A stretch of 64,000 nt of DNA, taken from NCBI GenBank assembly GCA_031253995.1, contig JAIRVG010000055.1, positions 22,983 to 86,982 on the forward strand, given 5' to 3'. Shown piece by piece: positions 63,686-64,000 of this stretch. A program made the position numbers and the translations under genes. The DNA is from Paucimonas sp. (GTDB lineage: Bacteria > Pseudomonadota > Gammaproteobacteria > Pseudomonadales > Pseudomonadaceae). The stretch's first letter is position 1; the number at the start of each line of letters is the position of its first letter. The notes beneath the pieces were generated by a model. The model did no database searches. It saw nothing but the letters and a program-made list of their open reading frames with translations, and was not told the DNA's origin.

Positions 63686-63698
63686 ACTTCAGGGCCTT

Positions 63699-63724
63699 AT
63701 CGCTGGCAAGCCAGCTCCCACAGG
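63699..63724. repeat. Single REP downstream of hutF
   Basis: ATCGCTGGCAAGCCAGCTCC-CACAGG, identical to one arm of the REPIN at 23960, 13 bp after the hutF stop; no paired second arm is visible within 60 bp. Confidence 0.88.
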
Positions 63725-63787
63725 GTCAGCACAACCCTTGAGATCTGTGCAGTACCTGCGGGAGTCCACCCAGCCCGCTGGGCTGCG

Positions 63788-64000
63788 CTGTCGCGTAGAG
63801 AACTAGACCGCGAGAGCGCCGCGGTCGGCGTGGGAGCGGATTCATCCGCGATTGGGCGCGAAGCGGCCATAAAACCTGAGTCCGCGGTGTGTCCGGAGAC
63901 CTCGGGAGTTAGGTTTTACGACGGCTTCGCCGCCGATCGCGGATGAATCCGCTCCCACGCCGACCGCGGCGCTCTCGCGGTCTAGTTCTCTGCGCGACAG
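63788..64000. repeat. Large near-perfect palindrome (65-bp arms) at the right edge
   Basis: The left arm 63788-63852 (from CTGTCGCGTAGAGAAC to TTCATCCGCGAT) is the reverse complement of 63936-64000 with one mismatch in 65. Inside the 83-bp centre a further inverted pair (GCGAAGC..TAAAACCT / AGGTTTTA..GCTTCGC) continues the symmetry. Each arm contains a GTGGGAGCGGATTCATCCGCG motif, a second Pseudomonas REP type. It encodes no protein and may extend beyond the window. Confidence 0.92.

Follow-up and report, generated by a model that had tools for sequence, protein, structure and literature searches.

IS110 elements are RNA-guided and often seek out REPs, and to our knowledge the movement of REPINs themselves has hardly ever been seen. 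ISPpu9 and ISPpu10, two members of the IS110 family, insert at a single fixed position of the REP with a two-base direct repeat, which is AG for ISPpu9 (PMC1525189, PMC8450116). ISPpu9 was also described to have a 41-nt A box, joints of the form B-AG-A and orphan A-B segments without a transposase, and the orphan ssr9 segments were reported to lie outside REPs (PMC1525189, PMC8450116). Here we analysed a stretch of 64,000 nt (the window), which ends in a long palindrome behind hutF, and compared it with the rest of its genome and with other Pseudomonas genomes (G numbers; C numbers are contigs).

The palindrome is present at positions 63788-64000. Its inverted-repeat arms (63788-63883 and 63905-64000) are 91% complementary and are separated by a 21-nt spacer. 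Base-by-base comparison showed a single mismatch in the outer 65 pairs, at 63796, and matches in 69 of the first 73 pairs, and the single-strand DNA fold reached -120.5 kcal/mol, compared with -51.7 +/- 3.7 for shuffles (z = -18.8), none of 200 of which folded as well. Both results bear out the first-pass annotation, which had described a long palindrome with 65-bp arms and one mismatch; the extra symmetry that it reported in the centre is there in part, but the centre is only partly symmetric. Position 64000 is the final base of contig C102 (86,982 bp, in a draft assembly of 108 contigs), so the right arm cannot be traced outward, and the length of at least 213 bp is fixed by the contig end. 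Rfam matches to the palindrome (MIR8670, MIR918 and Mcr7) were all far below cut-off, and these identities were rejected as generic long-hairpin scores, the two miRNA models scoring alike on both strands.

Most likely, the palindrome is a rearranged copy of a composite element in which IS110-type ends enclose a REPIN. A search of the own genome gave 82 matches with both strands combined, which, sorted by module, fell at about 70 places carrying parts of one composite, a few of which may pair up as the halves of a single copy broken across two contigs. The other arm copies for which the first-pass annotation had proposed a whole-genome search were thus found, and the reading of a unique palindrome was ruled out. 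The composite consists of three modules: arm A, initially delimited at 72 nt, a core of 129 bp that contains two GTGGGAGCGGATTCATCCGCGA REPs in inverted orientation, and arm B of 45 nt. In most full copies the order is A-core(-)-B, whereas the window copy reads A-core(inverted)-A'. Two copies, at C60:42302 and C36:14160, have a flipped core, and A is found at both ends at C93:14089-14295 (interior, with unique flanks), at C44:11800-11996 (with a short second arm) and in the window copy. As in REPINs, there are many dispersed copies with two inverted REPs forming a hairpin (63830-63852 against 63936-63958); unlike the terminal inverted repeats of classical MITEs, the A and B ends of normal copies are not inverted copies of each other. 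The palindrome as a query matched no plasmid, and arm A matched a single P. aeruginosa plasmid fragment that carries no transposase. Exact A-arm patterns had no match in the GTDB contig collection, which may leave out the source genome and near ones, and the arm sequences were not found as text in the literature. The parts of the window copy are as follows.

63698-63724, no strand: first REP, of the TATCGCTGGCAAGCCAGCTCCCACAGG class, of the REPIN resident behind hutF; the same class as the REPs around the syntenic RAYT of G009 and G007 and as the REPIN at the hutF site in G007, and lacking at the hutF site in G009.
63757-63764, plus strand: head TGCGGGAG of the second, interrupted REP, with the AG joint at 63763-63764; GTRGGAG/AG precedes A arms elsewhere.
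63765-63805, plus strand: outer arm A, the 41-nt left end, IS110/ISPpu9-like; conserved to about here across REPIN classes and species, with a match of ~95% at the G117 IS110 relic.
63806-63829, plus strand: inner part of arm A, which tracks the REPIN class; it varies by class, and a similar CGCGGTCGG also borders armless cores in G009 and G334.
63830-63852, plus strand: left REP of the core REPIN, the same REP as that flanking the RAYT gene at C58:91111-91563.
63853-63935, plus strand: middle of the REPIN, in the opposite orientation to that of most copies whose left arm is A, as seen from the copy catalogue and from flanks in register.
63936-63958, minus strand: right REP of the core REPIN, the exact complement of the left REP.
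63959-63982, minus strand: inner arm A' (inverted) in place of arm B; 24/24 complementary to 63806-63829, where normal copies have GCCGTCCCTGCTAAATCAATGAG.
63983-64000, minus strand: first part of an outer arm A' in inverted orientation, truncated where C102 ends at 64000; 17/18 complementary to 63788-63805.

The flanks of the copies place the unit inside REPs. Among 71 unique ends, AG stood before arm A in 64 and GTRGGAG in 53. Behind arm B (..TATGAGAG), a headless REP remainder, defined by a pattern written after inspection of the flanks, was found at 39 of 80 ends compared with 45 of 37219 control positions (0.12%); about half of the B ends have no recognisable REP behind them. Arm B ends in GAG-AG ahead of the REP remainder, and joining the flanks across the unit restores a whole REP or REPIN. 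The insertion is at one fixed REP position with an AG direct repeat at both joints, as for IS110/ISPpu9-type elements. In the window, the REPIN behind hutF is of the TATCGCTGGCAAGCC class and its second REP houses the unit; G009 has neither the unit nor the REPIN there. At C62:155141-155584 and C9:20728, units stand in tandem with B-AG-A joints, as known from ISPpu9; here later units have inserted into the AG of those already present.

An IS110 transposase relic in G117 has arm A some 170-240 bp upstream, behind a GTGGGAG head, with a match of ~95% over 41 nt, so that the left end is shared with an IS110 element in one case; arm B was not recognised at this degraded relic. The single IS110 transposase gene in the draft of the own genome (C53:42718-43146) has neither arm nearby, and no active partner transposase with matching ends was thus found in that draft. 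Taken together, we consider it probable that A and B are the ends of a transposase-less, ISPpu9-like IS110 element, inserted behind AG in REP heads and carrying a REPIN of the class of a single RAYT, and that the window copy is a rearranged form of it. The outer arms would be the two ends of such an element minus its transposase; the unit would insert behind the AG of a REP head, here that of the second REP of the hutF-side REPIN; its cargo would be a REPIN of the class belonging to the single RAYT of the genome; and its movement may be driven by an IS110-type recombinase acting in trans.

The arms and the core are separate modules. Armless cores with 83-90% identity were found in G009, G334, G347 and G144, and the RAYTs of these four genomes were among the nearest found to that of the own genome. 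Tens of copies of the arms are present in G024, G071, G086, G117, G171, G273 and G383, and two in G009; the same arm search among other Pseudomonas genomes did not find them in G334, G062 or G316. In other genomes the arms enclose other REPINs, with several REPIN classes within G273 and within G009, and the constant part of arm A ends near nt 48, the rest tracking the REPIN class. The earlier suggestion that the outer arm is a separate module is supported by these same arms around other REPINs in other species. Copies in which A and B are joined without a core were considered as ancestral empty sites. This was ruled out, since their joints lie at short direct repeats (CCGC, CTCC, GGCT, GCCG), and they are better read as products of slippage that deleted the hairpin.

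The REP core is linked to the sole PF01797 (Y1_Tnp) gene of the genome (C58:91111-91563), whose 151-aa protein resembles TnpAREP 4er8 and carries the motif MPDHVHWLV. A full B-core-A copy lies upstream of this RAYT gene and half a core downstream, so that the gene is flanked by the same REP as in the window core, as expected of a cognate RAYT. The RAYT locus is at the same place in relatives (permease - RAYT - efflux gene), but the protein at G009:C36:430938-431387 is only ~63% identical, and the syntenic RAYTs of G009 and G007 have a different REP class at their flanks. From these comparisons, the RAYT at the shared locus may have been replaced or may have co-diverged quickly with its REPs; a RAYT REP-class switch of this kind has been described before in Pseudomonas (PMC3686654).

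In another reading, the whole of A-core-B or A-core-A' is one large REPIN, its arms are part of the RAYT substrate and the RAYT is the sole mover. The RAYT gene is indeed flanked by the same REP and a full unit, and the insertion joint lies directly behind the GTRG head recognised by RAYTs. We nevertheless regard this as distinctly improbable, given that the core exists armless in four genomes and the arms surround other REPIN classes, that the insertion position and AG joints fit IS110 elements, and that an IS110 relic carries the A end. The first-pass annotation had proposed a non-autonomous element mobilised by a RAYT, or a target for one; the link of the core to the single genomic RAYT stands, but the unit as a whole need not be moved by this RAYT, because the outer arms look like IS110/ISPpu9-type ends in resident REPs.

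Template switching between inverted repeats has been reported to homogenise arms and invert spacers together (PMC8604942). Both signatures are found in this family, in the flipped cores at C60 and C36 and in the A-core-A' layouts at C93, at C44, in the window and in G273. Starting from A-core(-)-B, replication would switch strands at the left REP, copy the core and A backwards, and then return at another inverted stretch. One such switch between the inverted REPs would yield A-core(+)-A', with B replaced by an inverted A and the core flipped, and the window palindrome probably became more symmetrical in this way, by one end being copied over the other.

The right arm could instead be an artefact, the true copy being A-core-B and A' having been joined in the draft or by fold-back copying during library preparation. 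Such an artefact is possible for the window copy, since only 42 nt of its second arm are covered before the contig ends. The last 92 nt of C102 also recur, reverse-complemented, at the end of contig C53, and about 30 of the 216 contig ends fall in the composite, one copy of which has an unreadable homopolymer as its core. This copy, at C92:26666-26803, has intact A and B arms around homopolymer runs of the right length, which reflect failed base calling or gap filling in the hairpin, so sequencing suffers at the REPIN hairpin. C102 itself is bounded by the composite repeat at both ends, and the repeat is a main cause of fragmentation in the draft assembly. However, nine pairs of contig ends share exactly 119 nt and other ends overlap by exactly 119 nt, from which it follows that the contigs follow 119-mers, as left by an assembly with k = 119; the last 119 nt of C102 hold private core bases along with A'. 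In addition, the right arm shows the family base at a position where the left arm carries a private T, which is unexpected from fold-back copying. Finally, the A-REPIN-A' form occurs in two interior copies of the own genome and in the finished genome G273, where one unit, built around a REPIN of a different class, is bounded by A on either side over 264 bp and a further unit shows a partial second A, so it is not merely an assembly artefact. A contig-end artefact, which the first-pass annotation had itself raised, is thus conceivable for the right arm of this copy, which ends with C102 at 64000, but we judge it unlikely, and the palindromic A-core-A' is a rare rearrangement of the normal A-core-B unit.

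The composite lies between the convergent genes hutF and a lipocalin gene. The first-pass annotation had proposed to compare the syntenic hutF 3' region in relatives, and the closest relative searched, G009, has no palindrome or unit at this site. Most relatives carry a different REPIN or a terminator-like hairpin in the hutF-lipocalin gap (window 63686-63760) and G009 carries nothing; the gap is a recurrent landing site between convergent genes. On its lipocalin side the gap continues at the start of contig C58, behind ~230 bp (C58:1-230) that match neither the element nor the spacer of relatives and in which an open frame had no Pfam hit; this stretch may reflect a chimeric contig end or a further insertion. 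Selection for a long terminator or an RNA hairpin between the two genes would suit the tail-to-tail site and the presence of some REPIN or hairpin in most relatives, and P. fluorescens repeats favour tail-to-tail sites (PMC2718517). With a sequence that varies among relatives, none at all in G009, and Rfam scores that are generic, far below cut-off and equal on both strands, this explanation is highly improbable.

The interest of the locus lies in the coupling of the REPIN and IS110 systems and not in the palindrome itself. As a tentative and possible generalisation, two unrelated transposition systems may be coupled in Pseudomonas: IS110-type ends would land in REPs and carry REPINs as exchangeable cargo, RAYT hairpins would spread with an RNA-guided recombinase and supply its targets, and double-A copies would be a side product of template switching. 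The finding ties REPINs to IS110 elements and offers a testable route for REPIN spread between sites and classes, and the copies form a natural set for the study of how long hairpins flip, gain symmetry and are lost by slippage.

Among described systems, the window family shares with ISPpu9/ISPpu10 and the A-ssr9-B segments of P. putida KT2440 the fixed REP site, the AG repeat, a left end of ~41 nt, transposase-less A-B segments and B-AG-A joints (PMC8450116, PMC1525189), ISPpu9 having been compared by description only. It differs from them in holding a REPIN and not a transposase or ssr9 gene, and in its tens of copies. Dispersed intergenic repeats of 100-350 bp are likewise shared with R26, R178 and R200 of P. 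fluorescens (PMC2718517), again compared by description only. BIMEs also combine alternately oriented palindromic units with other repeated motifs, whereas in this family the additional motifs resemble the ends of an insertion sequence that sits within a REP. With the REPINs and RAYTs of fluorescent pseudomonads, the family shares two inverted REPs, GTGG heads, dispersed copies and one RAYT flanked by the same REP (PMC3116915; Nunvar 2010, 2013). In contrast to known REPINs, the 129-bp core here is enclosed by constant outer arms, between which REPINs of other classes are found as well, and in some copies the two ends are inverted copies of a single arm.
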